A DNA stretch of 64,000 nt from Acinetobacter zhairuonensis (GTDB lineage: Bacteria; Pseudomonadota; Gammaproteobacteria; Pseudomonadales; Moraxellaceae). The stretch lies in assembly GCF_022601715.1 (NCBI RefSeq), contig NZ_JAKVIM010000008.1:62001-126000 (forward strand), in the 5' to 3' direction. Position 1 is the first letter of the stretch, and every line of letters begins with the position of its first letter. Below are positions 11,936-41,875 of the stretch, one piece after another. The notes beneath the pieces are model-generated. The model searched no databases. It worked only from the letters and a program-made list of their open reading frames with translations, and was not told the DNA's origin. Both the position numbers and the translations under genes were made by a program.

Positions 11936-11939
11936 CTTC

Positions 11940-12500: not shown

Positions 12501-12504
12501 GTAT

Positions 12505-12930: not shown

Positions 12931-13119
12931 ATACGAAGACTAAATTAATTTAATAACACAAATTAGTACTATTATCCTTCTTTAATCCAAATATAGGCCA
13001 TGTTTACTGTCTAAATAGTAACGGAAACTGAATAATTGCAAATCAGTAATCTCTAAAATTTACATTATTTTTAAAAGGGCGATGTATCCAATCTTTTGTC
13101 GAGAATCACCTTAATTGGT

Positions 13120-14304: not shown

Positions 14305-14314
14305 CTTTTTTTCC

Positions 14315-15962: not shown

Positions 15963-15963
15963 T

Positions 15964-16566: not shown

Positions 16567-16568
16567 TT

Positions 16569-17702: not shown

Positions 17703-18337
17703 AATTTTCAGCTTTTTTAGTTTTTTTAAAAATTATTCTTTCCTTAATTAAGTGACAAAAATAGAACTTTTTCCTAAAAACATGTTCTGATTGTCTCTTT
17801 TGCATCTTTAATTAAAATACTTTTTTTGAGCTGTGTCTTTTAATTAATTATCCATTTTGTTGCAAAAAGTTTAAAAAAAATAAAGTTCAGCCATGTAACA
17901 AAAATTGAAATATGACTTAGCCAAAAAGTCTATCTAAATTCTGTAAATTGATTCAGAATAGTTAATGAACATACACCTCATACGAATTTGAATAAAGCGA
18001 GTAACTCTTTATAAAAAAGAAAATTTCAATATATTCATTGAAAAGTATAGGATTTCCATACCAAAATAAACTGACTTAATCCTTTCCTAGTGGTTGTTTC
18101 GATGTACTGCAAGTTTGGTAGATTTAAACATATAAGATTCTAAAGAATGCTTTGTACTTGATTGTAAACTCGTCAATTACGTGTGCAAAAGTTTTTAGAT
18201 TCAGGCTTATCCATCGAAAGCTATATTGATGAATAGTTCTTTAAGAATGTCTTGGTAAAATCAATCTACTTTTATTAATTTTCATTTAATTATTATTATT
18301 ATAGTAGCAGGTCTACAAAATGAGCTTTCATAAGCTG
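17703..18337. other. gene-free AT-rich spacer with no clear content
   Basis: About 635 bases without a credible gene separate the GT4 and GT2 genes of module B. Reading both strands, I find only short fragments, for example a + strand TRQLRVQKFLDSGLSIESYID followed by a stop near 18170-18240, vaguely like the N-terminus of small transposase accessory proteins. That resemblance is too weak to name. A promoter for the GT4-itrB-aminotransferase operon may lie here, but no convincing box is seen. Confidence 0.4.
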
Positions 18338-19213: not shown

Positions 19214-20309
19214 AGAAATAAAAACCAATGTAAATTAAAATTAACATTAAAACATAATGAATTTTTATTTTTTCATTAACAAATGGTGAATAAAACAATG
19301 GAGAAATTAGCAATGGAATAACACACCATGAGAACAATCCCCAACGATCTGAAAATGGCAACTGAAATGCCATAAAAAAAACAACACTTGAAATCATATA
19401 ATAAGAAACAAGTAATTTATATTGAGATAACAAATTAATATCATTCAATTTACTTATAATGTATAAAGAAATCAAAAGAAAGAAAGTATTCAATATAACA
19501 AACTGCAGTTTAAATCCAACACTGTATTCAGAATTTCCTTCTGAAAAATAATCCAAATACCTATCATCAGCAAAAAAATCTAAGAATAGTGAGGAAAAGT
19601 TTAGAATACCAAAATTATAGTAAGATAAAATTATTGAAAAAAAATAAATAAATATTAGAAAATTAAAGATTCTAATTTTTCCTAAAAAATAAGAAAACAA
19701 AAACAATAAAATTGGTATAATTGAAGTCAAATGAAAAGCTAATGACAGAAACATACACAGTAAAATTATAATATTACTCTTCTTATTAACCCACAAAGAA
19801 TAAGCAAACAATAAAACGGCTAAAGCCACCCCTTGCCTAATCACATTAATACTCATACTTAAATAAAAGAAAAATGACATACATGCAAAGAAGGTAATAA
19901 GAAGATTTGATTCAAATTTTTCAGTATAGTTTTTTAACGCATTATAAGTAAAAGCATAAAATAAGAAGGATATCAATAATAGAAAATAAGTATAACCCAG
20001 ATTAAAATATTGTAGAATCGAAGCGATTAAACCGAATAAAAACTCACCACGAAAATTCAAAACAAATGTTTCATTCCAAAGTATATCAAAATAACTAGCT
20101 GTATCAGTTCCTACATCATATTCCCTGAGACCGACAAGGAATATTAAAAAAATTAAAGGGAAAAAAACTAAATATTGACTTAATTTATTTTGTAGTAAAA
20201 CATCCTTCTTAATCTCTGAAGATAAAGCAGAAGCTATAACCATACATGCTGTACAAAAATAAATTAAACTGTATAAATTAAAAAAAGCAGTATTATCAAT
20301 TAATATCAT
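19203..20309 (-). CDS. wzy: EpsG-family polysaccharide polymerase (Wzy of module B)
   Basis: The 368-residue protein has about ten membrane segments. It carries the EpsG-family signature FLVGLREYDVGTDTASYFDIL near residue 58. Wzy polymerases join undecaprenyl-linked repeat units in the periplasm. It is unrelated in sequence to the module A polymerase (33938-35131), so the two modules polymerise different units. It is very AT-rich, as Wzy genes usually are. A 1.26-kb stretch of debris separates it from wzx'. Confidence 0.82.
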   Translation of the reverse strand: MILIDNTAFFNLYSLIYFCTACMVIASALSSEIKKDVLLQNKLSQYLVFFPLIFLIFLVGLREYDVGTDTASYFDILWNETFVLNFRGEFLFGLIASILQYFNLGYTYFLLLISFLFYAFTYNALKNYTEKFESNLLITFFACMSFFFYLSMSINVIRQGVALAVLLFAYSLWVNKKSNIIILLCMFLSLAFHLTSIIPILLFLFSYFLGKIRIFNFLIFIYFFSIILSYYNFGILNFSSLFLDFFADDRYLDYFSEGNSEYSVGFKLQFVILNTFFLLISLYIISKLNDINLLSQYKLLVSYYMISSVVFFMAFQLPFSDRWGLFSWCVIPLLISPLFYSPFVNEKIKIHYVLMLILIYIGFYFYDK

Positions 20310-20424
20310 TAGAAATACTATCCATATTATTATACAAGGTTAAAGTTCGACGGATTTTTGTTTTATATCAAAACCACTCTTAGCAAGACTTCGACATTAC
20401 TATCAAACTGATTGCTTACTAGAT

Positions 20425-21262
20425 TTATATATTCAAACGCTTAATCCATTTTTCAATGTTATTGAACTCTTTAAAATAAATTATGATTACACCCAAATCA
20501 ACTTCTTTTGATATCATCGAAGATATTATAGGCTTTAAACCAATTGCTTGACCTTCCAGCAACACCACTGGACTGGAAATCCTTCATGTAATGATGGCAT
20601 TAACATGAGATCAGTACCAGCCATTAAGTTTGACATATCATCTCTAGCACCTAAGAAATATATACTTTTAGTTAAAGTATAATCTTGTCTAATTTGCTTA
20701 ATCGATATCTCTAAAAGTGCTTCACCTACAATCAATAATGTAAAAAAATATCATGTTCCTTAATTTTTTAGCAATTTATAATGTTAGTCTATTATTCTTT
20801 ACTCCACTTAACCGATCGACTTGAATAGTTTTTAACATGTGAATATATTGTTTAATGCTTTTCCAATAATTTTAGTTGTTTCTGTTGTTTGACTACATAA
20901 TTCTAAATCTATAGCATTATGTAATAACAATACACCTTCTGCTGTACTAAAACAAATATTTCACAGCATCTTTTCTGCTAACAGATGAAAAGCATTACTT
21001 AGCGAATATGTACATGCACAATTCAATATTCAAGATATTGCTTTAAATAACGTGTTAGCTTGAACAAGTGTTTAATTGGATTATAAGTAAGAATCGGAAA
21101 AATTCTACAACCTAACTCACGAATTTCATAATCACCTTATTGAGTCGTAAATGTATAAAGTTAAATTTGACTTGGGTCCGATCAATATGATGATATAGAT
21201 TCATAAGTATATTTTCTGTACTAACATGCTTCCTCTGACCTGCTTTATGTAAAAATATAATT
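20425..21262 (-). pseudogene. shattered family 4 glycosyltransferase
   Basis: Minus-strand fragments in changing frames recreate a GT-B enzyme. From the N-terminal side they are STENILMNLYHHIDRTQVKF, a frameshift, an IVHVH piece, then GEALLEISIKQIRQ … SIYFLGARDDMSNLMAGTDL with MPSLHEGFP, another frameshift, and VVLLEGQAIGLKPIISS … NIEKWIKRLNI and stop. The best intact piece is 20535-20735. The order matches EpsF-like GT4 proteins, but at about 840 bases with many indels it cannot work. It probably once added a sugar to the module B unit. Confidence 0.85.
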
Positions 21263-21572
21263 ACTAATGATTCCTATATATGCATTTTTGAAGTTTTCGG
21301 TATTAAACTGATTTGTATTCATTACAGCAATTCCTGATAGGAGTTTTATATATTCAGGATTTAGCTATTGTTATATTGCAGCTGCAAAACCAGTCTCTTT
21401 ATTTTCAAATTCAACAACAGTTCAATATTTATTCGAGCTATTTAATGCTAGTTTTTATTAGAAATCCTTATTACCCAGTATGAAAAATGATGTTCTATAG
21501 AATAATTAACCAGCTAATACATCAACGATTCAAGAAATCTATAGAATGAATCTAAGCTTATCAATTTAAGCA
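21263..21572. other. non-coding debris upstream of wzx'
   Basis: About 310 bases with no usable reading frame. The minus strand near 21270-21380 gives a short open piece (EYIKLLSGIAVMNTNQFNT) that I cannot assign; it may be the end of another lost glycosyltransferase or sugar gene. Confidence 0.4.
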
Positions 21573-23108
21573 TCAATTACTCCTAAAATAGCATTTAATC
21601 TTTGATTTTAAATAGGATTTAACCAATTTTTTATGCGCTTTTTCTATACCTAAACCATATATTAACGAAATCACAACTAAAGTTTCTAACATAAAAATGA
21701 TCAAAAATCCAACAAAATCACTCACAATTACAAATTCAGCTATTGCCTTGAGGATTAAAATAATTGTACTAGTAGTAATAATTATATTAACTAAAACATT
21801 CATAAAAAATTTGGATACATCAAAATCATTAATCATTTTTTTTGCTATCCATAAATTTAAAAATGCAGCTAAGGTAGTATTCAAGGCATAAACAATATAA
21901 GCATAATGATAATCAAAACCAAATTTAAATATAAAATAAACCAATGGAACTGATAAAAAAATAACAGTCCCTGTTAAAAAACAGTATTTTTTCACATTAC
22001 CAGTAGCATGAATTAATATCACAATTGGCTCAAAAACCACCTCAATCAAACTGGAAATTAGTACAAAAACCGTAATTACTTTAGCATAATCAGGTGGGGA
22101 TCCCAGCCAAAACTTCATAATATAATCAATATTTAATATAATTGGAGCACAAAATATCAGCATTAAATAATAAGAATATTTTGCCGAGTAAAATGTTAAT
22201 ACATTCATTCTATCAACATCATAATCAGCATAACTACGCATTAATTGTGGCTTAACTGCAACCAATAGATTACCAGATAAACTATATAAAGCTGCATTGA
22301 TTTGATAACTTATTTTTACACTTGCAACCGCTATCAAACCAAAAAAATTATTCATCAAGAGCATTATACCCTCTACTTTAAAAACCTTAGAAAAACTCAA
22401 ATACAAATCCCAACTAATAAAATTTATTATTTTTTTAAGAAAATCATTATCTATATGAAATTTAACCCTTGCTTCAACAATATTTAATTGACTATAAACT
22501 ACATAAGTTAATCTTATTAAAAAAACTATACAAACAAAACCTGACGCATAATATAACAGCTTATCATGAGGAAGGAATATTAAAGCATAAGCCAATACCA
22601 GCTTCAAAGTTACATCAAGTACAGAAATCAAAGCATATATTCCAAACTTTTCTTTCGCCATCAATATGGATTCAAATGGAATGGTAATAACTAAAAAGAA
22701 TAGAGACAGTATTGATAAATTAAAAACTTGCAAGGCAATATTTATTTTTTCAATCGGTAATTTTACAAAAAAATTGATTACTAAAGCACCAAAAATTTTA
22801 ATTAATATACAAAAAAATAATGCAATAAAAATATGTAGAAAAAATGCTGTAGAAAATATTTTTTGAATATAAGATATTGTACCTTTCTCCATTTCTATAT
22901 TTAAGAAGCGATTCGATGCATTCGACAATGCAGTCTGAAAAAATGAAAATAACGCAATAACTCCCGCCAATGCTCCATATAAACCAAAATCTTCCACACC
23001 AAGATTCTTTAATAATATTCTAGTTGCATATAAGTTCAGTACAACTGTAACCAAAAGCCTAATGTACAAAGCCAATGTATTATTTAAAATTTTTTCATTT
23101 TTAGACAT
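21573..23108 (-). CDS. wzx: Wzx-type polysaccharide flippase (module B)
   Basis: The 511-residue protein has about 12-14 membrane segments and the PST/MOP flippase N-terminus NTLALYIRLLVTVVLNLYATRILLKNLGVEDFGLYG. It is expected to move undecaprenyl-linked repeat units across the inner membrane. It is longer than, and only distantly related to, the module A flippase (35119-36345). It is the first gene left of the divergent intergenic region shared with wza'; the gna gene that occupies this place in module A is absent. Confidence 0.88.
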   Translation of the reverse strand: MSKNEKILNNTLALYIRLLVTVVLNLYATRILLKNLGVEDFGLYGALAGVIALFSFFQTALSNASNRFLNIEMEKGTISYIQKIFSTAFFLHIFIALFFCILIKIFGALVINFFVKLPIEKINIALQVFNLSILSLFFLVITIPFESILMAKEKFGIYALISVLDVTLKLVLAYALIFLPHDKLLYYASGFVCIVFLIRLTYVVYSQLNIVEARVKFHIDNDFLKKIINFISWDLYLSFSKVFKVEGIMLLMNNFFGLIAVASVKISYQINAALYSLSGNLLVAVKPQLMRSYADYDVDRMNVLTFYSAKYSYYLMLIFCAPIILNIDYIMKFWLGSPPDYAKVITVFVLISSLIEVVFEPIVILIHATGNVKKYCFLTGTVIFLSVPLVYFIFKFGFDYHYAYIVYALNTTLAAFLNLWIAKKMINDFDVSKFFMNVLVNIIITTSTIILILKAIAEFVIVSDFVGFLIIFMLETLVVISLIYGLGIEKAHKKLVKSYLKSKIKCYFRSN

Positions 23109-23599
23109 AATTTAAAATCAACTTTTAAATATTTAAACATATAAAAAATTGCTTTATTTGATTTTTGCCAAACTGAATAAACTGGCCTATGATTTCGAAT
23201 TTTTTTTAATATGCTTGCCTATGGATTCCTTATATTACTAGCATTGAATTTACGATTAATTGAATTTGAGTAAATTTTATACCAATTAAATCTAATACAT
23301 TTTTAATTATATTAAAGACTTTATATAATAAAGTGCTATCACTAAGTACAAGACTGTAATTATTGTAGATCAGAAAATTTCAATCTTGTTTCATCATATC
23401 CTGCTTGTATCATATATACAATTACTAAGTCTTGTTGACACTCCATTTTTACTATTGGACTGTAGTTAGGTTTGTACTATCGTAAAAAATTATAATTGCA
23501 CTGTATAATTTGATGTATTAGTATATTTATTAAACAATCTCAATCACCCCCACAGATTGAAATATATTTATAATTTACAATGAATTACAGGGGTACAGA
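23109..23599. promoter_or_regulatory. divergent intergenic region between wzx' and wza'
   Basis: This 491-base AT-rich region should carry promoters for both the leftward module B sugar operon and rightward wza'-wzc'. I see no gene or gene relic in it. Its right end shares a conserved block with the region upstream of the other wza (see 23540-23560). No ops/JUMPstart element was recognised. Confidence 0.5.
23540..23560 (+). promoter_or_regulatory. conserved TCAATC-N9-GATTGA inverted repeat upstream of wza'
   Basis: A perfect 6-bp inverted repeat with a 9-base spacer lies 40 bases before wza' and is followed by AATAT…TATAAT. The same repeat, spacing and TATAAT occur upstream of the second wza (45680-45700), while the 9 spacer bases differ. 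This pattern suits a dimer-binding operator or promoter element; the role is inference. Confidence 0.5.
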
Positions 23600-24706
23600 G
23601 TGAAATTACTACAATATATTGGCCTTTTAGGGTTCACACTCAGCACTGTTGGTTGCGCTCTAGCACCAGGCCTTCAAACTTACAATTTACCTGAACAAGG
23701 TATTTATCAAACTGAACTTGGTAGTACAGTGCATGTCATTCAACTCAACCAAAATACCTTACGTGATTTAAATCAAACTTCAAACAGCAATCTACAAGAT
23801 TATTCTAGCTTATTTCGCCATTCCCAACTCTCATACAAGTTGAGTCCAGGCGATATTCTATCCATTTACTTGTGGGCTTATCCTGAAATTACGCCTGCAG
23901 CGAGTAATATTTCCAGCGAACAATCTATTCAAGCCAATGGATTCCAAATCGACCAAAGTGGTTATATTCAATTCCCCATTATTGGGCGCTATAAAGCTGC
24001 TGGAAAATCACTCTCTCAAGTGAATCAAGAGTTGCGTAGTCAGCTCTCTCGTTATTTAAAAACACCTGATGTGATTGCACGTGTTCTGTCTTATCAGGGC
24101 CAGCGTTATTCAGTTCAAGGTAATGTGATGAGAGGTGGGCAATTCTTTCTAAGTGATCAGCCCGTCAGTGTTTATACCGCTCTTAGTATGGCTGGTGGGA
24201 TTAATACACAATATGGTGATAACACCTCTATTACGTTGGTACGCCAAGGTAGAACTTACAAGTTGAATAGTATTCAACTCGAAAAGTCTGGTTATTCTTT
24301 ACACAATCTACTCATTCAACCTAATGATACTCTCTATGTAAATTCTAAAGAGGACCAGAAGATTTATGTCATGGGTGAATCTGGTAGGAATCAATCTTTG
24401 CCCATGCGTGATCAAGGTATGACCCTAAGTGATGTTCTGGGAGAAAGCCTAGGCATTGATTCAAATACTGCAAGTGCTAAACGAATTTATGTACTACGTA
24501 GTGACCCAAAGCAGCAACAAACTGAACTGTATCATATGAATTTAATGAGTCTGGGTGATTTCGGTTTAGCCAATCAATTTAGAATGCATAGCAATGATAT
24601 TGTTTATGTTGACTCTACAGGCTTAGCCCGTTGGCAACGTATCATTACCCAAATTTTACCGTTCTCTAATGCTTTGTATAATATTGATCGATTGGGAACT
24701 AACTAA
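23600..24706 (+). CDS. wza: Wza outer-membrane polysaccharide export lipoprotein (module B copy)
   Basis: Wza forms the octameric outer-membrane channel for capsule export. The 368-residue protein starts at GTG with an AGGGG ribosome site. It has a lipoprotein-type signal peptide ending in STVGC (Cys19), a Poly_export domain (YKLSPGDILSIYLWAYPEI near residue 80), SLBB domains, and a C-terminal LARWQRIITQILPF amphipathic segment. By eye it is well over 80% identical to the module A Wza, with most differences in residues 40-115 and scattered through the C-terminal half. The open frame is intact, so it may still be functional. Confidence 0.94.
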   Translation: MKLLQYIGLLGFTLSTVGCALAPGLQTYNLPEQGIYQTELGSTVHVIQLNQNTLRDLNQTSNSNLQDYSSLFRHSQLSYKLSPGDILSIYLWAYPEITPAASNISSEQSIQANGFQIDQSGYIQFPIIGRYKAAGKSLSQVNQELRSQLSRYLKTPDVIARVLSYQGQRYSVQGNVMRGGQFFLSDQPVSVYTALSMAGGINTQYGDNTSITLVRQGRTYKLNSIQLEKSGYSLHNLLIQPNDTLYVNSKEDQKIYVMGESGRNQSLPMRDQGMTLSDVLGESLGIDSNTASAKRIYVLRSDPKQQQTELYHMNLMSLGDFGLANQFRMHSNDIVYVDSTGLARWQRIITQILPFSNALYNIDRLGTN

Positions 24707-24959
24707 TACATATTTAAAATATTCTTATGGGCTGTATTGGAAATATTTGTCCTTGTCCAATAGCAAAATACGTTTCCAAGCAGAAATTTCTTCAATTGCA
24801 TATTGGACAAGCATAGCCGTTTCCCAAATGAAAATATTTCGTTTGGGTCACTGATAAGGTAAAACATTTTCAATCCTTACCAGCACGTAACGAGCCGTTT
24901 TTGATGACACCTGTCAACTTACACAAACCTGTATAAGTGACTGGAAACAATAAATTTAA
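24706..24959 (+). pseudogene. wzb: dead wzb' (low-molecular-weight tyrosine phosphatase)
   Basis: This stretch aligns with wzb (46828-47256) but is about 175 bases shorter. The start codon ATG has become ATA, and codon 4 is a stop. The CX5R phosphate loop reads CIGNICP instead of CIGNICR, so the catalytic Arg is lost; later stops follow, and the middle of the gene is deleted. The 3' end up to the wzc' start still aligns well. It cannot make a phosphatase; the intact wzb of module A could serve in trans. Confidence 0.93.
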
Positions 24960-24977
24960 CCCATAGATAATAAAATT

Positions 24978-27161
24978 ATGAGCCAAAATATCAATAAAGT
25001 AGAAACAAGTGATTTAAAAGAACTATTTTTTTCACTCATCGCTCAATGGAAACTGATTGCGTTATGCACCATCTTAAGCTTGGGGTGTGCACTGCTTTAT
25101 TTAAGAGCTACACCTAACACTTATGCAGTGAGCGCTTTAATTCAGGTGGAAAACAGTCAAGGGGCTGGTACCGCTGCCTTACTCGGTGATTTATCTTCCA
25201 TGGTAGATCAAGAGTCACCGGCTCAAGCTGAAATCGAGATTCTAAAATCTCACTTAGTACTCGGAAATGTAATTCAACATCTCAACCTAGACTTACAAGT
25301 CTCTGGTACAGAAAACTCATTTTTCGATCGTTTACTCTCTCCACACATTTATAAGACCCAGTACAGCACTCAATCTGTCCTGTTCAAAGATAACGAAAAA
25401 GCATTCGAAATAACACAATTTAAAGTCCCAGAAAACTACGAAGATCAAAGCCTTGAACTCCGCTTCACAGATCATCAATTCAATTTAACAGATCCAAAAA
25501 CTGAGCAAGTCCTACTTACAGCTAAGGTCAATCAACCTAATAACATTCGTACTGTCGATGGTGTATGGAATATTACAATCCATACTCAAGATCAACTCAA
25601 TGATACCTATCTCATTCAGAAACAATCTTTACCTGCAGCAGTAAATAATATTCTAGAGAATTACTCAGTTACAGAAAAAGGCAGGCTCACAGGTATTTTA
25701 GGACTGAACTATCAAGGTACAGATAAAGAGCATATTATCAAAGTACTAAATGCTATTTTAGCCTCGTATAGTCAACAAAACATTGAACGTCGTTCTGCAG
25801 AAACCGCACAAACACTGAAGTTTTTAGATGAGCAATTACCTGAGCTAAAACAACAACTTGATGTTGCTGAACGTGAATTTAACAAATTCCGTGAGCAATA
25901 CAATACGGTTGATGTTACACGAGAGTCTGAGCTTTATCTTACACAAAGTATTAACCTTGAAACTCAGAAAATCGCCCTACAACAAACACGTGCTGAATTG
26001 GCACAGAAGTACACCGCTGCACACCCTGAAATGAAACAAGTTAATGCTCAACTTGAAGCAATTAACAATAAAATTAATGAACTCAATACAACACTTAAAC
26101 AATTACCCGACTTGCAACGCCGCTATTTACAGTTGTACCGTGAAGTCGAAGTTAAACAACAACTTTATACCAACTTATTAAATTCTTACCAACAACTACG
26201 TATTTCCAAAGCAGGTGAAATTGGCAATGTTCGTATTGTCGATACTGCAATCAAACCAATTAAACCGATTGCACCTAAAAAATTACAGATTTTAATTTTA
26301 GCTATTTTCTTAGGTGCTTTCCTCGGTACAGTTTTAGCCTTTCTACGCAACATGCTACATACAGGCATTAAAGATTCAGCTCAAATTGAAAATGTATTTA
26401 ATCTGCCTGTGTATGCAACTATTCCACATTCACCTGTACAAGAAAGTCATAGTAAACTGCTTGAAAAGAAGAAACATATTCCAATTCTTGCAGTTGAAAA
26501 TAGTGATGATATGGCGATTGAAAGCTTACGTAGCATGCGTACCGCTATTCAATTTGCGCTCAATCATGCACCTAACAATATAATTATGATTTCTAGTCCA
26601 GGACCTGATCTAGGTAAATCCTTTATTGCCACCAACCTTGCTGTAATTTTAGCGCAAACCAATAAGCGTATATTGTTGATTGATGCTAACCTGCGTCGTG
26701 GGCATTTACACAAATATTTCAATCAAGATAATCAAGCAGGTTTAGCAGACTTTTTAAATGGTCAGCAGCCTCTTGAAAAGATTCTCAAACATACAGAAGT
26801 TGAAAATCTATCGTTCATTACATGTGGTAACAACCCAGCAAACCCTTCAGAATTATTGAGCATGGATGGCTTTAAAAGTCTACTCGAACAGCTCTCTGGT
26901 CAATTCGATTATATTCTTATCGATACACCACCAATTTTGGCGGTGACAGACAGTATTATCATTTCACAATATGCAGGTGTAAATCTTGTGATTGCACGTT
27001 ATGCGAAAACCCAAATGAAAGAGTTAGATCTTGTTATTCATCGGTTTGAACAAGCCAATACTAAAATTACGGGAATTATCATCAACGATATTCAACGTAC
27101 TGTAGATTCACATTATGGCTATAACTATGCTTATGATTATAAGAGTTCAAAAAAGGTTTAA
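24978..27161 (+). CDS. wzc: Wzc polysaccharide co-polymerase / tyrosine autokinase (module B copy)
   Basis: Wzc controls capsule chain length and export with Wza. The 727-residue protein has a Wzz domain with a first membrane segment near residue 30, a long periplasmic coiled-coil region (residues ~270-400), a second membrane segment near 435-455, and a cytoplasmic BY-kinase domain. Walker A is intact (SPGPDLGKSF) and so is Walker B (YILIDTPP), with a Tyr-rich tail (HYGYNYAYDY). In Walker A' the second Asp is replaced: IDANLRR with Asn571, where the other copy has IDADLRR. Residues ~90-225 diverge strongly from the other Wzc. It lacks its own Wzb. Confidence 0.93.
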   Translation: MSQNINKVETSDLKELFFSLIAQWKLIALCTILSLGCALLYLRATPNTYAVSALIQVENSQGAGTAALLGDLSSMVDQESPAQAEIEILKSHLVLGNVIQHLNLDLQVSGTENSFFDRLLSPHIYKTQYSTQSVLFKDNEKAFEITQFKVPENYEDQSLELRFTDHQFNLTDPKTEQVLLTAKVNQPNNIRTVDGVWNITIHTQDQLNDTYLIQKQSLPAAVNNILENYSVTEKGRLTGILGLNYQGTDKEHIIKVLNAILASYSQQNIERRSAETAQTLKFLDEQLPELKQQLDVAEREFNKFREQYNTVDVTRESELYLTQSINLETQKIALQQTRAELAQKYTAAHPEMKQVNAQLEAINNKINELNTTLKQLPDLQRRYLQLYREVEVKQQLYTNLLNSYQQLRISKAGEIGNVRIVDTAIKPIKPIAPKKLQILILAIFLGAFLGTVLAFLRNMLHTGIKDSAQIENVFNLPVYATIPHSPVQESHSKLLEKKKHIPILAVENSDDMAIESLRSMRTAIQFALNHAPNNIIMISSPGPDLGKSFIATNLAVILAQTNKRILLIDANLRRGHLHKYFNQDNQAGLADFLNGQQPLEKILKHTEVENLSFITCGNNPANPSELLSMDGFKSLLEQLSGQFDYILIDTPPILAVTDSIIISQYAGVNLVIARYAKTQMKELDLVIHRFEQANTKITGIIINDIQRTVDSHYGYNYAYDYKSSKKV

Positions 27162-27183
27162 TTTATTTTCAAAATCCATTCAT

Positions 27184-27214
27184 AGAAAGAACGAGCACCA
27201 TACTCGTTCTTTCT
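27184..27214. terminator. hairpin between wzc' and pgi
   Basis: A perfect 12-bp stem, AGAAAGAACGAG / CTCGTTCTTTCT, encloses a 7-base loop. It lies 22 bases after wzc' and could terminate wzc' transcription. The T-rich part is inside the stem rather than after it. Confidence 0.75.
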
Positions 27215-27354
27215 TATATGATCAAACCTAGCGCAACACAATCGACGAATAAAATTGGATAGATACTCCATCCTCCTCTAACATCTTCTAATGCTCACTT
27301 ATTGCAGAATATTAAACAATCCTCTTTAGACATGAGAATCAGTTAAACCTTTTT

Positions 27355-27378
27355 ACCTGTGACCAAAATTTTAGTCAT
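27355..27378 (-). pseudogene. galE: 5' relic of gne1/galE overlapping the end of pgi
   Basis: On the minus strand, 24 bases starting with an ATG that overlaps the pgi stop (ATGACTAA) encode MTKILVTG. This matches MAKILVTG, the start of the intact galE at 9739. After this the frame reads KKV and stop. The position, overlapping pgi, is where gne1 begins in ordinary Acinetobacter K loci. It is too short to be anything but a breakpoint scar. Confidence 0.82.
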
Positions 27379-29044
27379 ACGTATTGCCTAATAACACTTT
27401 CAGTAGACCTTGGGTCGAAGCATCAAACTCTGTCATATCAGTTTGCTGACCATTCAGTACTGGTAATAACTGATTGGCAATTTCTTTGCCTTTTTCCACG
27501 CCCCACTGATCAAAGGGATTAATATTCCAAATCACCGACTGCACAAACACTTTATGTTCATAGAGTGCAATCAGCATACCTAGTGTTTTGGGGTTTAACT
27601 CATTGATCAATATTGTTGTACTTGGCTGATTTCCCTCATATTTTTTATATTCTGGTAGATTTTCCACTTCATTCGCACACAATGCTTGATTACCAAACGC
27701 CAGTAATCTTGATTGCGCCAAACAGTTAGACAGAGCTAAATGATGTTGCTCAATGAGTGCTTCGGCATTTTCCACATAAGTAAATTGTTTTGCATTATAA
27801 CGCTGTACGGGTGCGATAAAATCACAACTCACCGCATGCGTCCCCTGATGCAGCAACTGATAGAACGCATGCTGTGCATTTGGCCCCACCTCGCCCCATA
27901 CAATTGGGCAAGTCGCAGATTCAACTTTTTGATGATTCCTCTGTAGAGATTTACCGTTGGATTCCATTTCGAGCTGCTGTAAATACGCAGCAAAATATTT
28001 CAACCGACCATCATAAGGCAGAACAGCATGGGTCTGCATATTCAGATAGTTAGTATTCCATACCCCTAATAAACCCATCAGCACAGGAATATTTTGCTCA
28101 AACGGTGCATTTTGAAAATGTTGATCCACCAAATGTGCACCCGAAAGTAGGGCTTTAAATCCGTCAACTCCAATTTGCAAAGCAATCGGTAATCCAATAC
28201 AAGACCAAAGAGAATAACGCCCTCCTACCCAGTCCCATAATAAGAACTGGTGATCAGGATGAATTCCCCAGGCCGTCATTTTTTCAGGTTTAGTTGATAC
28301 GCCAATAAAATGACTTTTAAGCACACAATCGCGTTGCCCTAAGCTTTTCTCCAGCCATTGGCGCACCGTTTCCGCATTCGACAAGGTATCAATTGTTCCA
28401 AATGATTTGGAAGAAATAATAAACAAGGTGGTTTCAGGTCTTAACTGATGTAAGAGCTCTGAAAGCTGGCTGCCATCCATGGTCGACACAAAATGGACAT
28501 TTAAGGGCTTCGCTGTTTGGACTTTAAAATCCGATAAGGCATGAGAGACCATCAAAGGACCCAAATCTGAGCCACCCACCCCAATATTCACCACATCTTG
28601 AATGACCTCACCCGTCACTCCACGATATTGTCCTGCATGTATTTTTTCCACCAAATCAAACATTCGGCCTAATTGTTCATGCACTTGCTGCGATAATTCA
28701 GGAAAAACATCGGAATCTTGAGGCAAGCGCAAAGCCCAATGCATCGCTGCACGTTGCTCGGTGTAATTAATTGTCTCAACTGAAAATAGACGACCGATCC
28801 AAGCTTTTAATTGTTTTGCTTCTGCTAATGAGAGCAATGCCTTTGTCACAAGCAAATTGACACGGTGCTTACTAAAATCAAAAAGCAAATCTTCACAACG
28901 CAAACTGAAGTTTTCAAAACGTTGTGGTTGCTCTGCAAAGAGCTGGTTCAAATGAACCAACTGCATTTGTTCCGCTAACTGCTGTAATTTTTGTTCAGTA
29001 GAAGGCAATGCGTGCTTAGGAAAATTTTCGATATTTTCTCTCAT
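27371..29044 (-). CDS. pgi: glucose-6-phosphate isomerase
   Basis: The 557-residue enzyme interconverts glucose-6- and fructose-6-phosphate and is a standard member (gpi) of the conserved end of Acinetobacter K loci. Signatures include [17 protein letters not shown] near residue 150 and the PGI signature 1 and 2 regions. In the latter, [15 protein letters not shown] lies near residue 500. Its start overlaps the ugd stop by 4 bases (ATGA). Its 3' end overlaps the gne1 relic. Confidence 0.96.
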
Positions 29045-30306
29045 ACCCGACCAACTCCCTCATATGCAAAACCCTGCGCTTTGACATATAGAGGATCATA
29101 AATGTTACGTCCATCTAGAATAAGCGGATGACGCATAAATTGCTGTAGTTTTTTATAATCAGGGCTAGCGTATTGTTTCCATGCGGTGATCACACATAAG
29201 GCATCTGCATCTTGAGCTGCATCATAAGCATCTGTACACAAAATCAAATCTTCTCGATGACCATACTGTTGATATATTTCTTTCAGCGCTTGTGGATCAT
29301 GTAGTTTAATCTTCGCACCTTGTGCCCAGAGTGCATTCAGCATGGCATGAATTGGGGAGTTATGAATACTTGAGGTATTTTCTTTGAATGATGCGCCCCA
29401 AATTGCAACAACTTTATTTTTTAAATCTGAATGGTAATAACTCCAGAGTTTACGAAATAAAATTTCTTTTTGCTGCTCATTAATATCCAAAACCTGTTGT
29501 AACAGACGGCTTTTCGCACCACTTTTTGAAACTTCACTGGATAACGTCAAAATATCATGCGAAAAATTTTCACCACCGAAACCGACTCCAGGTGATAAAT
29601 AAGTTGAACCGATTCGCGAATCCGCACCCATACCCTGCGTCACATTCACAATATCAATGCCTAATTTTTCAGCTACCAGAGCAAGGTCATTGATATAGCT
29701 AATTCGAGTCGCCAGCATTCCCGAGATACTCAGCTTCGTAAATTCAGCATCTAGAATCGGCATGAATAAATATTGGTTAGTTGTACTAAATATAGGTCGT
29801 AACAACTCTTCAATCATAGTTCTAGCGGGGGCTTCCTCTACCCCAACAATAATCTGCTTTAAATGCAGCACACTATTAATGGCATTCCCCTCCTGAATCA
29901 CATCAGGTAAGTAGACCCAGTAATCTTGAGGCGAAATCTCGCTAAGCTTATTTGTAGCATTTAATCCAAAAGTTGCAGCATTAATCATCAATCTTGGATG
30001 AATAATCGGTTTTAAAGCCAATGTCTTGAGGGTCTGAACCGCGATCTCAATCTCTGTTGGGCTATAACAAAAGAAATAAACATCTACATCCAAAGGGAGT
30101 TCAACTACAGCACAATAAAGAAGCTGTCCCAATTTATGTTGTCGATTAAGACGAGAATTTACATCTTCATCTAAATACTGAACCCGTTTCTGATGGGAGT
30201 GCTCATTAGTTTGTTGACTGCACCAATAGACTTGATTGCCATATTCGGATAACAATACAGCCATGACACCTGCATTCAGTGTCGCACCTAATATTGCAAC
30301 TTTCAT
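29041..30306 (-). CDS. ugd: UDP-glucose 6-dehydrogenase family protein lacking the catalytic Cys
   Basis: The 421-residue protein has the UDP-glucose/GDP-mannose dehydrogenase layout (N-terminal NAD domain, central helical dimer domain, C-terminal UDP domain) and holds the usual K-locus ugd position between galU and pgi. The active-site loop, normally GFGGSCFPKD, reads [10 protein letters not shown]: Asn247 stands where the catalytic Cys should be and the following Pro-Lys is Ser-His. The NAD-binding loop is also unusual ([12 protein letters not shown] instead of GxGYVG). It may therefore not make UDP-glucuronic acid. I recall the same loop in other Acinetobacter K-locus Ugd proteins, but cannot verify that here. 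A second dehydrogenase with an intact Cys lies at 31962. Confidence 0.85.
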
Positions 30307-30328
30307 AATTCACCCACCGCACTTATTT

Positions 30329-31207
30329 TTATTCGACATTCAATTCGGCAATCAACTGCTTGAATTCGTGCCCTAATTGAGGATGTGCAATACCATAATG
30401 CAAAACAGCCTTCAAATAGCCGAGTTTACTGCCACAGTCAAAAGTCTCGCCTTTCATTCGATAAGCCTCAACTAAATCAGTACGCTGCAACATTGCAATT
30501 GCATCGGTCAACTGGATTTCATTTCCTGCACCCTTCGGAGTTTGCTCCAGTAACTGCATAATTTTGGCTGGTAGAATATAACGCCCAACAACAGATAAAT
30601 TTGAAGGTGCTGTCCCTACAGCTGGTTTTTCTACAATGCCTTGCATAGTGATACTTTCACCTTCTAAAGGCGAGCTGGCAACATCCACAATTCCATATTG
30701 ATCCACCAAATGCTCAGGAACTGCTTCAACCATAATTTGTGCTGCTTGTGCAGTCTCATAACGCTGAATCATACTGGCAAGATCATTTTGGTCTGATTTG
30801 GCTTTAACCAATACATCTGGAAGCAGTACAGCAAAATCATCAGTTCCAATAATGCTTTTGGCACACAAAACAGCATGGCCGAGCCCTAAGGGCTGTGGCT
30901 GACGTACACTCACTACACTCACATGTGAAGGTAGGATTTCAGTAATTTCTTTCAAAAGATCAGTTTTATTTTTCTGCGCTAAGGTCGTTTCGAGTTCAAA
31001 ATTTCGATCAAAATAATTTTCAATTGAAGCTTTGGAAGAATGCGTGACTAAAATAATTTGTTCGATTCCTGCTTGAACCGCCTCACGCACAACATATTCA
31101 ATTGCTGGACGATCGACCACGGTCACCATTTCTTTAGGAATAGATTTACTTGCAGGTAAAAAACGCGTACCTAAACCAGCAACAGGTAAGATTGCTTTTT
31201 TAATCAT
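30329..31207 (-). CDS. galU: UTP-glucose-1-phosphate uridylyltransferase
   Basis: GalU makes UDP-glucose from glucose-1-phosphate, feeding GalE and Ugd. The 292-residue protein has the nucleotidyltransferase start PVAGLGTRFLPASKSIPKEM, the PLGLGHAV motif, and a VEKP segment. It sits in the itrA-galU-ugd-pgi block of the K locus, 22 bases upstream of ugd. Confidence 0.97.
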   Translation of the reverse strand: MIKKAILPVAGLGTRFLPASKSIPKEMVTVVDRPAIEYVVREAVQAGIEQIILVTHSSKASIENYFDRNFELETTLAQKNKTDLLKEITEILPSHVSVVSVRQPQPLGLGHAVLCAKSIIGTDDFAVLLPDVLVKAKSDQNDLASMIQRYETAQAAQIMVEAVPEHLVDQYGIVDVASSPLEGESITMQGIVEKPAVGTAPSNLSVVGRYILPAKIMQLLEQTPKGAGNEIQLTDAIAMLQRTDLVEAYRMKGETFDCGSKLGYLKAVLHYGIAHPQLGHEFKQLIAELNVE

Positions 31208-31244: not shown

Positions 31245-31853
31245 TTATACATCAACTTTTTCTGTAGTTTTAGAAAACCGACTTGCACCAACGACCTGAT
31301 TGGGTGCATTAATACCTTCTTTTTTAAGCATGACTAAAACTGTTTTAAACATAATTTTAAAGTCTAATGCTAGCGTCTGTGTATTTACATATTCAATGTC
31401 TAATTTAAATTTATCTTCCCAATCCAAATTATTGCGACCACTGACTTGAGCAAGCCCAGTCATGCCAGGGCGGACCTCATGACGTCTCATCTGTTCTGGG
31501 GTATAATGTTCAAGAAATTCTTTTAATTGCGGTCTTGGACCAACAATGCTCATATCCCCTTTTAACACGTTAAAAAGTTGAGGCATTTCGTCCAATGTAG
31601 TGGAGCGCAATTTTTGACCAAAAGGAGTAATACGCTTTTCATCAGACAGAGGATTACCCTCTCGATCAAAAGCGTCCGTCATAGAACGAAACTTAATCAT
31701 CTTAAATAGTTTTCCATCTTTACCAGGACGCTCTTGGCAGAAAAAAATAGGCGAACCTAAATTTTTACGTACTTTATAACAAACAATGAGGAAAATCGGA
31801 GACAATAATATTAGTGCTATTAGTGAAATCAGTATATCTAATAATCGTTTCAT
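31245..31853 (-). CDS. itrA: initiating sugar-1-phosphate transferase, ItrA type (module A)
   Basis: This phosphoglycosyl transferase loads the first sugar of the module A unit onto undecaprenyl phosphate. The 202-residue protein has one N-terminal hydrophobic helix, MIKFRSM, the catalytic TTLDEMPQLFNV, GDMSIVGPRP, and RPGMTGLAQVSGRN. It directly precedes galU, the standard itr position. ItrA enzymes of Acinetobacter usually use GalNAc- or GlcNAc-1-phosphate; which one is used here is not readable. Confidence 0.92.
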   Translation of the reverse strand: MKRLLDILISLIALILLSPIFLIVCYKVRKNLGSPIFFCQERPGKDGKLFKMIKFRSMTDAFDREGNPLSDEKRITPFGQKLRSTTLDEMPQLFNVLKGDMSIVGPRPQLKEFLEHYTPEQMRRHEVRPGMTGLAQVSGRNNLDWEDKFKLDIEYVNTQTLALDFKIMFKTVLVMLKKEGINAPNQVVGASRFSKTTEKVDV

Positions 31854-31961
31854 AGTATCAAACTCAAATTTTTAACTAACATTATTTTAAATAACCTTTA
31901 AAATCAATAATATAAAAAACACTCGTTTTCATGAAGAGCTTTTTTTTACTACATACCAATG

Positions 31962-33134
31962 TTAATCTTGATTAAAAATATCTCTAGTATAAACCTTTTC
32001 AATCACATCGAGTAAATCATCATTCAAGCGATTAGACAGAATCACATCACTATCCATTTTAAAATTGTTCAAATCTTTCTCTACAAGACACTGATTAAAT
32101 TCATTTACTTTCAAAGTAGGTTCATAGATGATTACTCTTATATCATGCTGCAATAACTTCTCAATAATTTTTTCAACAGCAGAAGATCTAAAGTTATCAG
32201 ATCCATGTTTCATAATAAGACGGAATACACCAACAACTTTGGGATTCTTGGCTAAAATTGCATTAACAATAAAGTTTTTACGTGTATTATTTGCTTCTAC
32301 CACCGCAGTAATAATTTTATTAGGAACATCCGCATAGTTTGCCAATAGCTGCTTTGTGTCTTTTGGTAAACAATAGCCACCATAACCGAAAGAAGGATTA
32401 TTATAATAATTCCCAATACGCGAATCTAAACATATTCCTTCAATAATTTGCTTAGTTTCCAAATTCTTTATTTCAGCATATGTATCTAATTCATTGAAAA
32501 ATGAAACTCTCATAGCCAAATACGTATTAGCAAAAAGCTTGATTGCTTCTGCTTCAGTTGGATCTGTTAATAGAATTGGGATATCCTTTTTTAGAGCTCC
32601 TTGCAACAACAGATTAGCAAAGTTCTTAGCACGATCTGATTGTTCTCCTACAATAATTCGAGAAGGAAAAAGATTATCGTGCAAAGCCTTCCCCTCACGC
32701 AGGAATTCAGGAGAAAAAATAATATTTGAAGTATTATATTTCTTCCTAACAGACTCAACAAATCCTACAGGAATTGTTGATTTTATTATAATTAGTGCAT
32801 CTTTATTTACAAATATTACTTGTTCAATGACAGATTCAACAGAGAATGTGTTGAAATAATTTTTATCTTCATCGTAATCAGTAGGAGTTGCGACAATAAC
32901 AATATCTGAACGTTCAAAGGCATCTTTATAATTCATTGTTGCTTCTAAATTCAGTTTTTTATTTTTCAAATATTCAATTATTTCACGATCATGAATAGGG
33001 GATCTACGTTGATTTACTAATTGAATACGATTTTCATCTGTATCGACTGCAATTACTTGATTATGTTGAGAAAGTAAAATTGCATTTGATAACCCAACAT
33101 AACCAAGCCCAACAACAGATACTATTAAAGACAT
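31962..33134 (-). CDS. ugd: UDP-glucose 6-dehydrogenase (second copy, catalytic Cys present)
   Basis: The 390-residue protein has the NAD loop VGLGYVGLSN at the N-terminus, VATPTDYDEDKN, SPEFLREGKA, and the active-site loop FGYGGYCLPKD with Cys255. This is the short form of UDP-glucose dehydrogenase, as in E. coli Ugd, and should supply UDP-glucuronate. It is not closely similar to the K-locus ugd at 29041. It lies between a GT2 gene and itrA, so glucuronic acid may be part of the module A unit. Confidence 0.93.
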   Translation of the reverse strand: MSLIVSVVGLGYVGLSNAILLSQHNQVIAVDTDENRIQLVNQRRSPIHDREIIEYLKNKKLNLEATMNYKDAFERSDIVIVATPTDYDEDKNYFNTFSVESVIEQVIFVNKDALIIIKSTIPVGFVESVRKKYNTSNIIFSPEFLREGKALHDNLFPSRIIVGEQSDRAKNFANLLLQGALKKDIPILLTDPTEAEAIKLFANTYLAMRVSFFNELDTYAEIKNLETKQIIEGICLDSRIGNYYNNPSFGYGGYCLPKDTKQLLANYADVPNKIITAVVEANNTRKNFIVNAILAKNPKVVGVFRLIMKHGSDNFRSSAVEKIIEKLLQHDIRVIIYEPTLKVNEFNQCLVEKDLNNFKMDSDVILSNRLNDDLLDVIEKVYTRDIFNQD

Positions 33135-33149
33135 TAAATAATCCTATTT

Positions 33150-33932
33150 TTAAATATTAAATATATTAGCAATAAAAGGTAATTTCGAACGAATTATACC
33201 TTTAAGCATATAATGAGAGAAACAATAAATAGATTGAATAAAGGATAGATTTTCTATATGGCGATATAAATACCAATTGTACTGAGCTGCTTTAAACTTA
33301 TTCGCTGAAATTGAATCAGAGCGCACCGTGTAACTTGCTAAATCTACATTAAGACCATAAGCATAAGGAGTTAATTTCAAAATTTTTAACCATAATGCGA
33401 AGTCTTGGCGTTTTCTAATTAATGGAAATTCAACTTTGCCTATTTTTTTTGTATCGTACATTGCAGTAAGACAACCAATCACACAAGTTTTTAAGAGCTG
33501 ACTATAGGCAACTTTTAGTGGTATATTTACCGTAGATAAAAAATCCCCGACTTCATTGACTTTATGGTATTTTGTATAAGTTAATGCATAACCATTTTCA
33601 ATCATAAAAGTGACTTGTTTATTGAGTTTATCAGGATGCCAAGTATCATCACTATCTAAGAATGCAATAAAGCGTCCTTGGGCCTGTTGAATTCCTGTGT
33701 TACGAGCAACTGCTGCACCAGAATTTTTTTCTAAACAAATAAGCTTAATTCTATTATCCTGATGTATATATTTTTCTATTACAGATAAAGAGTTATCACT
33801 TGAACAATCATCAATAATAATCAACTCCCAATCAGAGTAATTTTGACTCAAAACAGAATTTATAGTTTTCTCGATAAATAATGAAGAGTTAAATGATGGC
33901 ATAATTACCGAAACCAAGTATCTATTTTGCAT
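33150..33932 (-). CDS. family 2 glycosyltransferase (module A)
   Basis: The ~260-residue GT-A enzyme shows VSVIMPSFNSSLFIEKTI, the IDDCSSDNS nucleotide site, and a DSDDTWHPDKL metal motif. It should transfer one sugar of the module A unit in the cytoplasm. Two starts are possible: ATG at 33932, or GTG at 33941, which overlaps the wzy stop by 4 bases (GTGA). Neither has a good ribosome site. Confidence 0.9.
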   Translation of the reverse strand: MQNRYLVSVIMPSFNSSLFIEKTINSVLSQNYSDWELIIIDDCSSDNSLSVIEKYIHQDNRIKLICLEKNSGAAVARNTGIQQAQGRFIAFLDSDDTWHPDKLNKQVTFMIENGYALTYTKYHKVNEVGDFLSTVNIPLKVAYSQLLKTCVIGCLTAMYDTKKIGKVEFPLIRKRQDFALWLKILKLTPYAYGLNVDLASYTVRSDSISANKFKAAQYNWYLYRHIENLSFIQSIYCFSHYMLKGIIRSKLPFIANIFNI

Positions 33933-33937
33933 AACAT

Positions 33938-35131
33938 TCACACTATTTTAGTATTTAAAATAAATTTAAGAAAACAATAAGACATTATCATATACAAAAA
34001 AACTGGAAAACTAAATAATGTTAAAAAAGATGAAGAATTTAACCAGGACAAAATTACCGCGGCAGTAAAAATATAATACATACAAGTTCTTAAAATATCA
34101 CCCTTGTAAATAAATAAATCAATCTTATTTAAGAAAAAAGAAATAATAACCCCAGAAAAAATTGCGTAGATCCAGTAAAAACTCCCTAATATATAAACTG
34201 CCTCACCAAAATTAGTAACAGTAACATTAGTTGTTCCTGAAATAGCCTTCTCCCAATTTGGATAAACCATATATGTTATCTTTCTAGATAAATTAGAATC
34301 CAAAACATCTACAGAATTAAACTTCAGACCAAAAACATGCTCACTAATAGTATTACCAAAAAGATTATATAAAAGTTTAGAAGATTGATCTATATCAACA
34401 CCATTAGCAAAATAATTCCAGACACCTATAGTACCAAACGCAGACATTACAGTCATTCTATGAATAATAAAATAAAATGCGTCATTATAGCTAGAGTAAT
34501 TCATGACTTGTCTTGTTGTAAAAGTTAAAATCACTAATACAATAGGAGTAATATACAAAACAACCTTTATAATATTTTTTTTATAAAACAGTAAAAGAAA
34601 TACAGGAATTAAAGTAAATATAACAACAAACTTATACCCTGTAAAAAATGCGCTTAAAACACCCAAAAAATAGATAACATAACAAATTTTCTTACTAATT
34701 TTTTTATTGGTAATAAAGATTATTGTTGTCAACAATATTATTAAAGGAGTTGCATATATAGTAATCCACTTATATAAAAAACCTAAAGGACCAAATCCAA
34801 CCCTAATATCCCCTCGATTTTGCCCCTTAAAAAGATAATCATAACCAGAAAAAATAAAGACAAAACAGCAAAAAATTATCATTATAACTAGCATACGTCT
34901 CAAACTTCTAGTATCTTTAGTAGATGGTAAAAATGATATTAAATTAATTTCCTTCTTTAAATATAAAAAAAACACTATTGAAAATACTATTAAAGCGTAT
35001 ATCAAATTATTTACAAATAGCTGCCACGTTACATCTCCTGCAACAACCATGTCACCACTAAGCAATAAATATAACTCTCCAATAACAGGCATAAATAAAT
35101 ATGCAGCGATGATAAGTATTAACAGTTGCAT
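33938..35131 (-). CDS. wzy: Wzy-type oligosaccharide repeat-unit polymerase (module A)
   Basis: The 397-residue, very AT-rich protein has about 10-12 membrane segments and a large periplasmic loop (residues ~215-320). Its location next to wzx and its topology point to Wzy, which polymerises repeat units in the periplasm. It lacks the EpsG signature of the module B polymerase. It overlaps the wzx end by 13 bases. Confidence 0.8.
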   Translation of the reverse strand: MQLLILIIAAYLFMPVIGELYLLLSGDMVVAGDVTWQLFVNNLIYALIVFSIVFFLYLKKEINLISFLPSTKDTRSLRRMLVIMIIFCCFVFIFSGYDYLFKGQNRGDIRVGFGPLGFLYKWITIYATPLIILLTTIIFITNKKISKKICYVIYFLGVLSAFFTGYKFVVIFTLIPVFLLLFYKKNIIKVVLYITPIVLVILTFTTRQVMNYSSYNDAFYFIIHRMTVMSAFGTIGVWNYFANGVDIDQSSKLLYNLFGNTISEHVFGLKFNSVDVLDSNLSRKITYMVYPNWEKAISGTTNVTVTNFGEAVYILGSFYWIYAIFSGVIISFFLNKIDLFIYKGDILRTCMYYIFTAAVILSWLNSSSFLTLFSFPVFLYMIMSYCFLKFILNTKIV

Positions 35132-36345
35132 TTAAGAACCCTAACATTAAATAAATTTTTACCTAGAATATAGAGATATAATAAAAAAATCTGCACCAAA
35201 TTACAAATAAGAATTGAATATGGCACTTTATAAATACTAATGTTTGAAAAATAATAAAGTGAAATCAAGTAACAAAGCAATGAAAAAAATGAAATTATAC
35301 TTATTACCAAAACCTTACCATGATAAAATAAATAATTAACAACAATAAGGTATGGAAGAATGAGCATAAAAGCAGCTGAGAAAATAATAGTATATTGTTT
35401 TACACCTTGAAATCCTTCCCCCAAAATAAGAGCATAAATATTATCATTTATTAAAGAAAAAAATATTGGAGGTAAAGGAACTATACAAAAACTAACAAGT
35501 GAAAAAAGTAAAATTTTTCTCTCTCTTATTTTTTTATTTTTCAAAAAATCAAAGTAGTATGGTAACAATGCTTTATTCAAAGCCATTAATCCAACAGATA
35601 CAATGCTTGCTAACTGCACTCCCGCTGAGTAAACCCCCAACTTTTCAGAGTCGAAATAATTATATATATAAATTTTATCAAATTGACCTTTTGCAAACAT
35701 ACTAAATTGATGCAAAAGTAATGGAATACCAAAGGATAAAAAGTATATTAGCATTATTTTAATTTTTCTTACTCTGAAGTTTTCTTTTTTATTTCTACTA
35801 AAATTAATATATGAAATTATAAATCCTAAAAAATAAGAAAATAAAAAAGAGAACATCCACGATTTAAGATTATCCAACACACCATAATTAAAAAAATATA
35901 TTAAACTAAATACTAAAGCAAATGAATTAATACATTGGAGAAAAAAATACTGGATTGCTTTTTTTTGACACTGCCTAAGTGACAACTGAACATTAAACAA
36001 CGACTGGAAAGATGCAATTAATGTGAGAATTATATAATCCATCTTACCAATTACATAAAAAAATAAAATTAGAAAAAATGTAATTAAAAAGTTATATAGA
36101 TAACAGACATTAACAATAGAAATCAAAGATTTCTTGCCGTATTTATAATAATATCTTGTAATCGCACCCTCTTGACTCATACTAACAAAAATTAAAATTA
36201 GCAAAATCACAGTCTGATAATAACTAACAACCCCATAATCTGAAGCACCCATTATTCTGGTTAGATATGGTATAACCAAGAAAGGTGTTATTTTTGATAT
36301 AAACTCTGCTAATAAATATGTAACTCCATCCTTTAAAATCGACAT
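35119..36345 (-). CDS. wzx: Wzx-type flippase (module A)
   Basis: The ~408-residue protein has about 12 membrane segments with the MOP/PST start ITPFLVIPYLTRIMGASDYG near residue 20. It should flip the undecaprenyl-linked repeat unit. I chose the ATG at 36345 with upstream GAAGG; the frame is open to a TTG at 36378 that would overlap the preceding gene. Neighbours are wzy and the polysialyltransferase-like gene. Confidence 0.88.
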   Translation of the reverse strand: MSILKDGVTYLLAEFISKITPFLVIPYLTRIMGASDYGVVSYYQTVILLILIFVSMSQEGAITRYYYKYGKKSLISIVNVCYLYNFLITFFLILFFYVIGKMDYIILTLIASFQSLFNVQLSLRQCQKKAIQYFFLQCINSFALVFSLIYFFNYGVLDNLKSWMFSFLFSYFLGFIISYINFSRNKKENFRVRKIKIMLIYFLSFGIPLLLHQFSMFAKGQFDKIYIYNYFDSEKLGVYSAGVQLASIVSVGLMALNKALLPYYFDFLKNKKIRERKILLFSLVSFCIVPLPPIFFSLINDNIYALILGEGFQGVKQYTIIFSAAFMLILPYLIVVNYLFYHGKVLVISIISFFSLLCYLISLYYFSNISIYKVPYSILICNLVQIFLLYLYILGKNLFNVRVLKCNC

Positions 36346-36367
36346 GTTTTTTAACAAACCTTCACAC

Positions 36368-37258: not shown

Positions 37259-37259
37259 A

Positions 37260-39653: not shown

Positions 39654-39656
39654 TTA

Positions 39657-41874: not shown

Positions 41875-41875
41875 C

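Follow-up and report, generated by a model that had tools for sequence, protein, structure and literature searches.

The window, that is, the whole 64,000-nucleotide stretch of Acinetobacter zhairuonensis DNA that was analysed, holds genes of two capsule (K) loci in one chromosomal place. Locus A adjoins fkpA, and a second set of genes, here called module B, lies between gpi and gne1. Pfam and NCBIfam searches supported most gene labels. Features are listed below by position in the window.

6243 to 8712, plus strand: pgm and an acyltransferase gene, beyond gne1
8720 to 9739, minus strand: gne1/galE, intact, 339 aa (TIGR01179 galE; 92.4% DNA identity to A. kanungonis)
9742 to 9788, minus strand: gpi 3' relic, the reciprocal scar (aligns to 57 to 10 bases before the end of A. 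tandoii gpi)
9837 to 11711, minus strand: gdr, UDP-GlcNAc 4,6-dehydratase-like, module B (Polysacc_synt_2)
13120 to 14304, minus strand: DegT-type aminotransferase, module B (PF01041)
14315 to 14932, minus strand: GNAT acetyltransferase, module B (PF13302)
14910 to 16019, minus strand: GNAT/FemAB-like protein, module B (PF13480; FemAB_like below its cut-off)
15964 to 16566, minus strand: itrB-like initiating sugar transferase, module B (PF02397, Bac_transf)
16569 to 17702, minus strand: glycosyltransferase, module B (PF00534)
18338 to 19228, minus strand: glycosyltransferase, module B (PF00535)
19203 to 20309, minus strand: wzy-like polymerase, module B (EpsG family)
20310 to 21264, minus strand: glycosyltransferase pseudogene in several frames, module B (open, 365-371 aa, in genomes G123, G165 and G126)
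21573 to 23108, minus strand: wzx-like flippase, module B (MatE 20.9 bits, under the Pfam cut-off of 24.9; homologues in the three other carriers)
23600 to 24706, plus strand: wzaB, intact
24707 to 24959, plus strand: wzbB, decayed, with a large internal deletion (alignment to wzbA)
24978 to 27161, plus strand: wzcB, intact tyrosine autokinase
27162 to 27354, no strand: spacer between the wzcB end and the gne1 relic (80-88% identical in three other genomes)
27355 to 27378, minus strand: gne1 5' relic, 24 bases, its ATG overlapping the gpi stop (22/24 identity to the intact gne1 start)
27371 to 29044, minus strand: gpi (pgi), intact, 557 aa (NCBIfam PRK00179)
29041 to 31207, minus strand: ugd and galU of locus A, arranged as in single K loci
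31245 to 45519, minus strand: centre of locus A with itrA, wzx, wzy, nonulosonate-type genes and gna (labels partly by homology and position only)
45725 to 49458, plus strand: wzaA, wzbA and wzcA, adjoining fkpA

Viewed as a K locus, module B has intact wza and wzc, a wzb pseudogene, a wzx (recognized by the sub-cut-off MatE match and by homology among carriers), a wzy, an initiating transferase and glycosyltransferases. Of a galU-ugd-gpi set belonging to module B, only the 3' relic of gpi was seen. Aligned to wzbA, wzbB scored 174, whereas none of 200 shuffles exceeded 45. In all four genomes that carry the double locus (see below), a deletion has turned wzbB into a pseudogene, so that a single Wzb is left at the locus beside two Wzc kinases. 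Within a 1.4 kb gap, short DNA stretches at 11805-11976 resemble the ends of the aminotransferase gene (13150-13254) and of gdr (11585-11619). They are perhaps an old duplication; this stretch was not recovered when the aminotransferase served as a protein query.

The gne1 relic (27378 to 27355 on the minus strand) reads ATGACTAAAATTTTGGTCACAGGT and translates to MTKILVTG, with KKV and then a stop codon after it. It shares its first 8 bases with the 3' end of gpi, whose TAA stop occupies 27371-27373; both the letters and the overlap of the ATG with the gpi stop were as described in an earlier, sequence-only reading of this DNA. The intact gne1/galE, correctly placed by that reading 17.6 kb away (9739 to 27355), opens with ATGGCTAAAATTTTAGTCACAGGT, which is identical to the relic at 22 of 24 bases, with two mismatches. 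When the window was scanned with the opening 24-mer of gne1 at up to three mismatches, two sites were found, the gene itself (9716-9739) and the relic, while two matches occurred in 0/100 dinucleotide shuffles (mean 0). The first 8 relic bases are held by gpi, so that the independent evidence lies in the following 16, of which 15 agree with intact gne1. The 24 bases, proposed earlier to be a relic of gne1, are thus, by their match to its intact start, the dead start of a second gne1.

Similarity to gne1 possibly continues, with a one-base gap, to about base 49; over bases 25-51, equal scores were obtained by 154, 221, 385 and 423 of 2000 shuffles in the respective species. A gne1 profile search reported the relic in two of the four carriers (G165 and G123), the window not being among them. 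The profile and the shuffles hint at a longer relic without reaching significance, and it was not adopted. The remainder of the spacer at 27162-27354 is possibly gne1 in a more advanced state of decay. It contains an inverted repeat (27184-27214) that looks like a terminator. A BLAST search of the spacer, about 190 bases long, against the fetched loci returned only the four carriers and short matches with E values of 1.5 or weaker. A match in G047, from the spacer search of 175 genomes described below, sits at the start of an unrelated gene, and the gap between pgm and wzc in G146, considered as a source, gave no match. With regard to a transposon or IS insertion, the open reading frame list of the window shows no frame of at least 100 aa in either junction spacer.

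Comparison with other gpi loci was based on the best 80 listed, of which 58 have Acinetobacter in the record title. Within these 58, gne1 adjoins gpi in 49: in 35 it overlaps gpi by 8 bases, the same length and place as in the relic, and in 14 it lies within 100 bases at another spacing. These counts bear out the earlier statement that gne1 starts at this point in single K loci. In the nine remaining loci, which lack gne1 after gpi, the relic bases matched at 22/24 in ANC 4910 (L006), itself a double locus, at 15/24 in A. seifertii and at 6-10/24 in the other seven. The sequence-only reading had named the same 24 bases next to a gpi that never adjoined gne1 as evidence against it; the only relic-bearer among the nine is the double locus. 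The A. seifertii locus (L024) has its 15 matching bases after gpi though gne1 is absent, perhaps an independent, shorter gne1 remnant. A chance match, or a stretch conserved through its overlap with gpi, in place of a gne1 remnant, is barely conceivable: gpi accounts for 8 of the 24 bases, but the agreement outside the overlap, the empty shuffles and the presence of gne1 at that very spot in most Acinetobacter loci all speak against it.

The uninterrupted arrangement that had been anticipated in relatives, galU-ugd-gpi-gne1-pgm, was found in A. kanungonis (L002) and A. tandoii (L003, G159), which are the nearest non-carriers in gpi among the best 80 listed. A. kanungonis is also the nearest relative of the window in the flanking genes compared; it was seen as a 13.7 kb locus only, and a second locus elsewhere in its genome is possible. 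In A. tandoii G159 (contig C8, about 112545-120500), five genes encoding 275, 724, 560, 518 and 532 aa lie between glmS and pgm; by size and place only, they resemble TnsABCDE of a Tn7-type element, and a related block has been reported for A. variabilis (PMC12904642).

A second scar lies at the other end of module B. The spacer between gdr and gne1 (9740-9836) contains, at about 9742-9788, a decayed 3' end of gpi that is present in all four carriers. Its alignment with the A. tandoii gpi end was equalled by 0/2000 shuffles in each of them. For the window, G123, G165 and G126, respectively, the corresponding numbers were 1, 0, 0 and 28 of 2000 with the carriers' own gpi ends and 11, 17, 91 and 72 of 2000 with A. 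kanungonis gpi. A profile of gpi 3' ends reported this relic in three of the four. With a gpi end and gne1 at one side, and gpi and a gne1 start at the other, the gpi/gne1 junction is present twice and flanks module B. The proposal that the gne1 relic marks the junction of two modules is supported, with the amendment that the gpi relic before the intact gne1 had been missed.

The gne1 relic was found in 4 of 175 Acinetobacter genomes, all of which have the same double locus. A search of these genomes with the spacer between the relic and wzc matched six, four of them over nearly the full length: the genome of the window, G123 (ANC 4910), G165 and G126. The other two matches span 24 and 38 bases only. 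The relic pattern with the following AAA, at up to two mismatches, matched five genomes, with zero mismatches in the four carriers; at two mismatches it also matched where intact gne1 begins in G123, G126 and G165, as well as a similar sequence in G125. Some glycosyltransferases excepted, all four carriers have one layout, which reads pgm, acyltransferase, gne1, gdr, aminotransferase, GNAT, GNAT/FemAB-like, itrB, glycosyltransferases, wzy, wzx, wza, decayed wzb and wzc on the B side, followed on the A side by gpi, ugd, galU, itrA, variable genes, gna, wza, wzb, wzc and fkpA. The fkpA end of G123 is on a separate contig and its link is inferred. The centre of locus A varies among carriers and module B is largely constant. 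Both scars recur in three other genomes, so that this strain is probably not where the fusion arose, which modifies the earlier account of how module B entered.

The ancestry of the genes in and around module B is mosaic. In the left-flank genes (glmU, glmS, pgm) the window groups with A. kanungonis, and A. tandoii with the three other carriers, both at 100/100. Window gne1 is closer to A. kanungonis (92.4%, versus 86.7-87.2% to ANC 4910 and G165), while the spacer and gdr are 93-96% identical to ANC 4910 and G165. Relative to G165, identity is 93.1% in gdr, 94.8% in the spacer, 24/24 for the first gne1 bases and 86.9% in the rest of gne1. Informative sites placed a break at 9740-9713; upstream of 9740, these sites set the carrier spacer against a functional A. 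kanungonis gpi and so favour the carriers trivially, for which reason the change point was determined with the window and the carriers alone. The best change point was at 9671, about 70 bases into gne1 (0/500 permutations), and was the same for G123. This shift in divergence supports the part of the earlier proposal in which module B recombined through the gne1 start. On the gpi side, gpi is a patchwork of A. kanungonis-like and carrier-like sites; the best break falls in ugd at about 29.59 kb, without a single clean crossover. The galU gene and a little over half of ugd are A. kanungonis-like (160 of 213 informative sites), beyond 29595 there are 77 A. kanungonis-like versus 88 carrier-like sites, and 18 of 28 sites from 27620 onward favour the carriers.

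Synonymous divergence (dS) between the window and G165 was 0.16-0.44 in 10 of 11 module B genes (itrB 0.70) and 0.60-1.21 for 17 other genes, with gpi at 0.48 and ugd at 0.43. Relative to G126, wzx, wzy and itrB gave 0.56-0.74 and the other eight module B genes 0.15-0.36. Similarity across module B is uneven, which counts against the reading favoured below, as does the lack of one clean crossover on the gpi side: when the window is compared with G165 or G126, identity is 76-89% for wzx, wzy, itrB and the FemAB-like gene. On the whole, these patterns fit an exchange between species in which recombination ran through gpi and gne1 and most of module B was transferred along with its junctions.

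As a further counterpoint, the single-locus species nested among the carriers could represent losses. The double locus would then be ancestral to the clade and vertically inherited, A. kanungonis and A. tandoii having lost module B, perhaps by recombination between the junction copies. Both scars are common to the four genomes, single-locus species are interleaved with carriers, and wza and wzc trees separate the B copies from the A copies and A. tandoii, hence an old split. Against such a history, the spacer, gdr, wza and wzc are far closer between the window and the other carriers than the flanking genes are, and the divergence shifts close to where gne1 begins. On dS and spacer identity, a vertically inherited module B is disfavoured, and an ancestral double locus is judged unlikely.

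We favour, with a probability of roughly 0.75, an origin in which two K loci came to lie in tandem, redundant copies were then shed, and recombination in gpi and gne1 later carried the block from one species to another. A complete K locus B (wzc-wzb-wza ... itrB ... gdr-galU-ugd-gpi-gne1) would have come to adjoin K locus A at the gpi/gne1 junction, possibly with one end joined through homology and the other illegitimately. Complementary losses would have removed gne1 from A, plus pgm if it was duplicated, and galU-ugd-gpi, gna and wzb from B; the flanking gpi and gne1 would then have provided the homology for recombination as the block spread between species. Tandem loci with complementary loss account for both scars. 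In the itrB/gdr-type loci of G056, G116, G134, A. terrae and A. pecorum, gdr is directly followed by galU-ugd-gpi-gne1, and a gpi scar behind gdr is thus at the expected site of a galU-ugd-gpi loss. Module B looks like an itrB/gdr-type locus minus galU-ugd-gpi, gna and wzb, and locus A like one minus gne1.

Quick trees of the best-matching sequences (77 Wza and 53 Wzc rows; support as SH-aLRT only) placed the B copies as sister to the A copies and A. tandoii, the whole group having support of 100 (10 Wza rows) and 99 (9 Wzc rows). On this placement, the export genes of module B have an old origin, either in this clade or in a close relative of it. When sequences are ranked by plain identity instead, G116 has the Wzc closest to wzcB outside the carriers (75%, with wzcA at 73%); this slight lead disagrees with the tree joining B to A and is a counterpoint to the fusion. 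Two further counterpoints are that the original left junction inside gne1 is not explained base by base and that most of the spacer of about 190 bases could be matched to no source. Among the Acinetobacter genomes examined, none with both loci complete was found; G146 (wzc-pgm-gne1-gpi) is an analogue only. A Campbell-type integration, in which circular or duplicated DNA with module B and a short gpi/gne1 piece entered by a single crossover, without later gene loss, has as its expected product a full gpi with a gne1 start, module B, and a gpi end with a full gne1. It is nevertheless considered improbable, because module B has wzc and gdr at its ends, as a full K locus stripped of galU-ugd-gpi would, and still contains a decayed wzb.

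If tandem fusion with complementary loss is correct, the relic is the well-placed scar of a fused double capsule locus and no new system. From its gene content, the cell would have two Wzx/Wzy/Wza/Wzc routes, one galU-ugd-gpi-gne1-pgm set and one Wzb. Low dN relative to dS (dN/dS figures of 0.027/0.16 for wzcB and 0.027/0.25 for gdr) suggests that module B was under selection in the past. In this strain it may give an altered product or none, because the glycosyltransferase at 20310-21264 is broken in the window and open in three relatives. A sugar formed by gdr, the aminotransferase and the GNAT protein would be predicted from their likeness to qhbA/qhbB/gdr of KL1 (PMC3628348). A more speculative and rather doubtful interpretation is that module B serves as a portable second capsule locus that travels whole from one Acinetobacter species to another through the gpi/gne1 homology at its ends; it would confer a second Wzx/Wzy pathway on a single-locus cell in one recombination step, the two Wzc proteins sharing one Wzb.

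The usual view of a capsule locus is of a single exchangeable cassette at each site. In the window, two Wzx/Wzy loci occupy one chromosomal place with one precursor gene set and a single Wzb. The order of events can be read from the scars, which makes this a testable case for how cells acquire two capsule loci. It also allows a test of whether two kinases can rely on a single phosphatase, and it warns that a second K locus can escape typing built on the expectation of one per genome.

Wzc matches with E <= 1e-100 were found in 161 of 175 genomes, and two or more in 16. Fifteen of these 16 were examined, all but G004 (contamination 7%): four have the layout of the window, ten a second layout and G146 a third. 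The second layout reads pgm-gne1-gpi-ugd-galU-gdr ... wza-wzb-wzc, followed by an itrA-type locus with wza and wzc before fkpA; gna was called in seven of the ten, in part in G136. It is contiguous in G054, G056, G063, G134 and G160, and was inferred across contigs in G051, G075, G136, G139 and G161, least surely in G075. In the Wzc tree, the fkpA-side copies of nine of the ten (not G160) form a separate clade with both G146 copies. In G146 (contig C26, 15001-57762), wza-wzb-wzc lie beyond pgm and the contig ends inside the second locus; the 757-base gap between pgm and wzc reads by eye like a decayed transposase. A second gne1 in G146 was sought and rejected, as one copy and a 36% paralogue only were present.

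Locus A has the order of the Acinetobacter K locus (fkpA-wzc-wzb-wza ... galU-ugd-gpi-gne1-pgm) beside fkpA. In A. baumannii, 217 of 237 KL carry genes between gpi and pgm, and gne1 is missing from some (PMC9676051). The gpi-pgm combinations in Table 5 of that paper comprise at most four genes, whereas the window has a whole second Wzx/Wzy locus between gpi and gne1. In the consulted portions of published Acinetobacter K-locus descriptions, a second K locus between gpi and gne1 was not found. The published case of A. variabilis, with a second wza/wzc and extra genes on the fkpA side of wzc (PMC12904642), is alike in that a duplicate set of export genes and additional CPS genes sit together. 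It differs in that its extra genes are on the fkpA side, whereas the second locus of the window is at the gpi/gne1 end and has two scars; the second layout of the ten genomes agrees with the A. variabilis description. Homology-facilitated illegitimate recombination leaves one junction of each kind, homologous and illegitimate, and is known to result from DNA uptake (PMC3240628); the first fusion is likened to it as a proposed route only. Several capsule systems of the same group per genome are common (PMC5542703). In that survey of >2500 genomes, same-group systems are reported not to be in tandem, and only 8 of 1004 consecutive capsule system pairs lay <10 kb apart; in the window, by contrast, a second capsule locus lies within the first.
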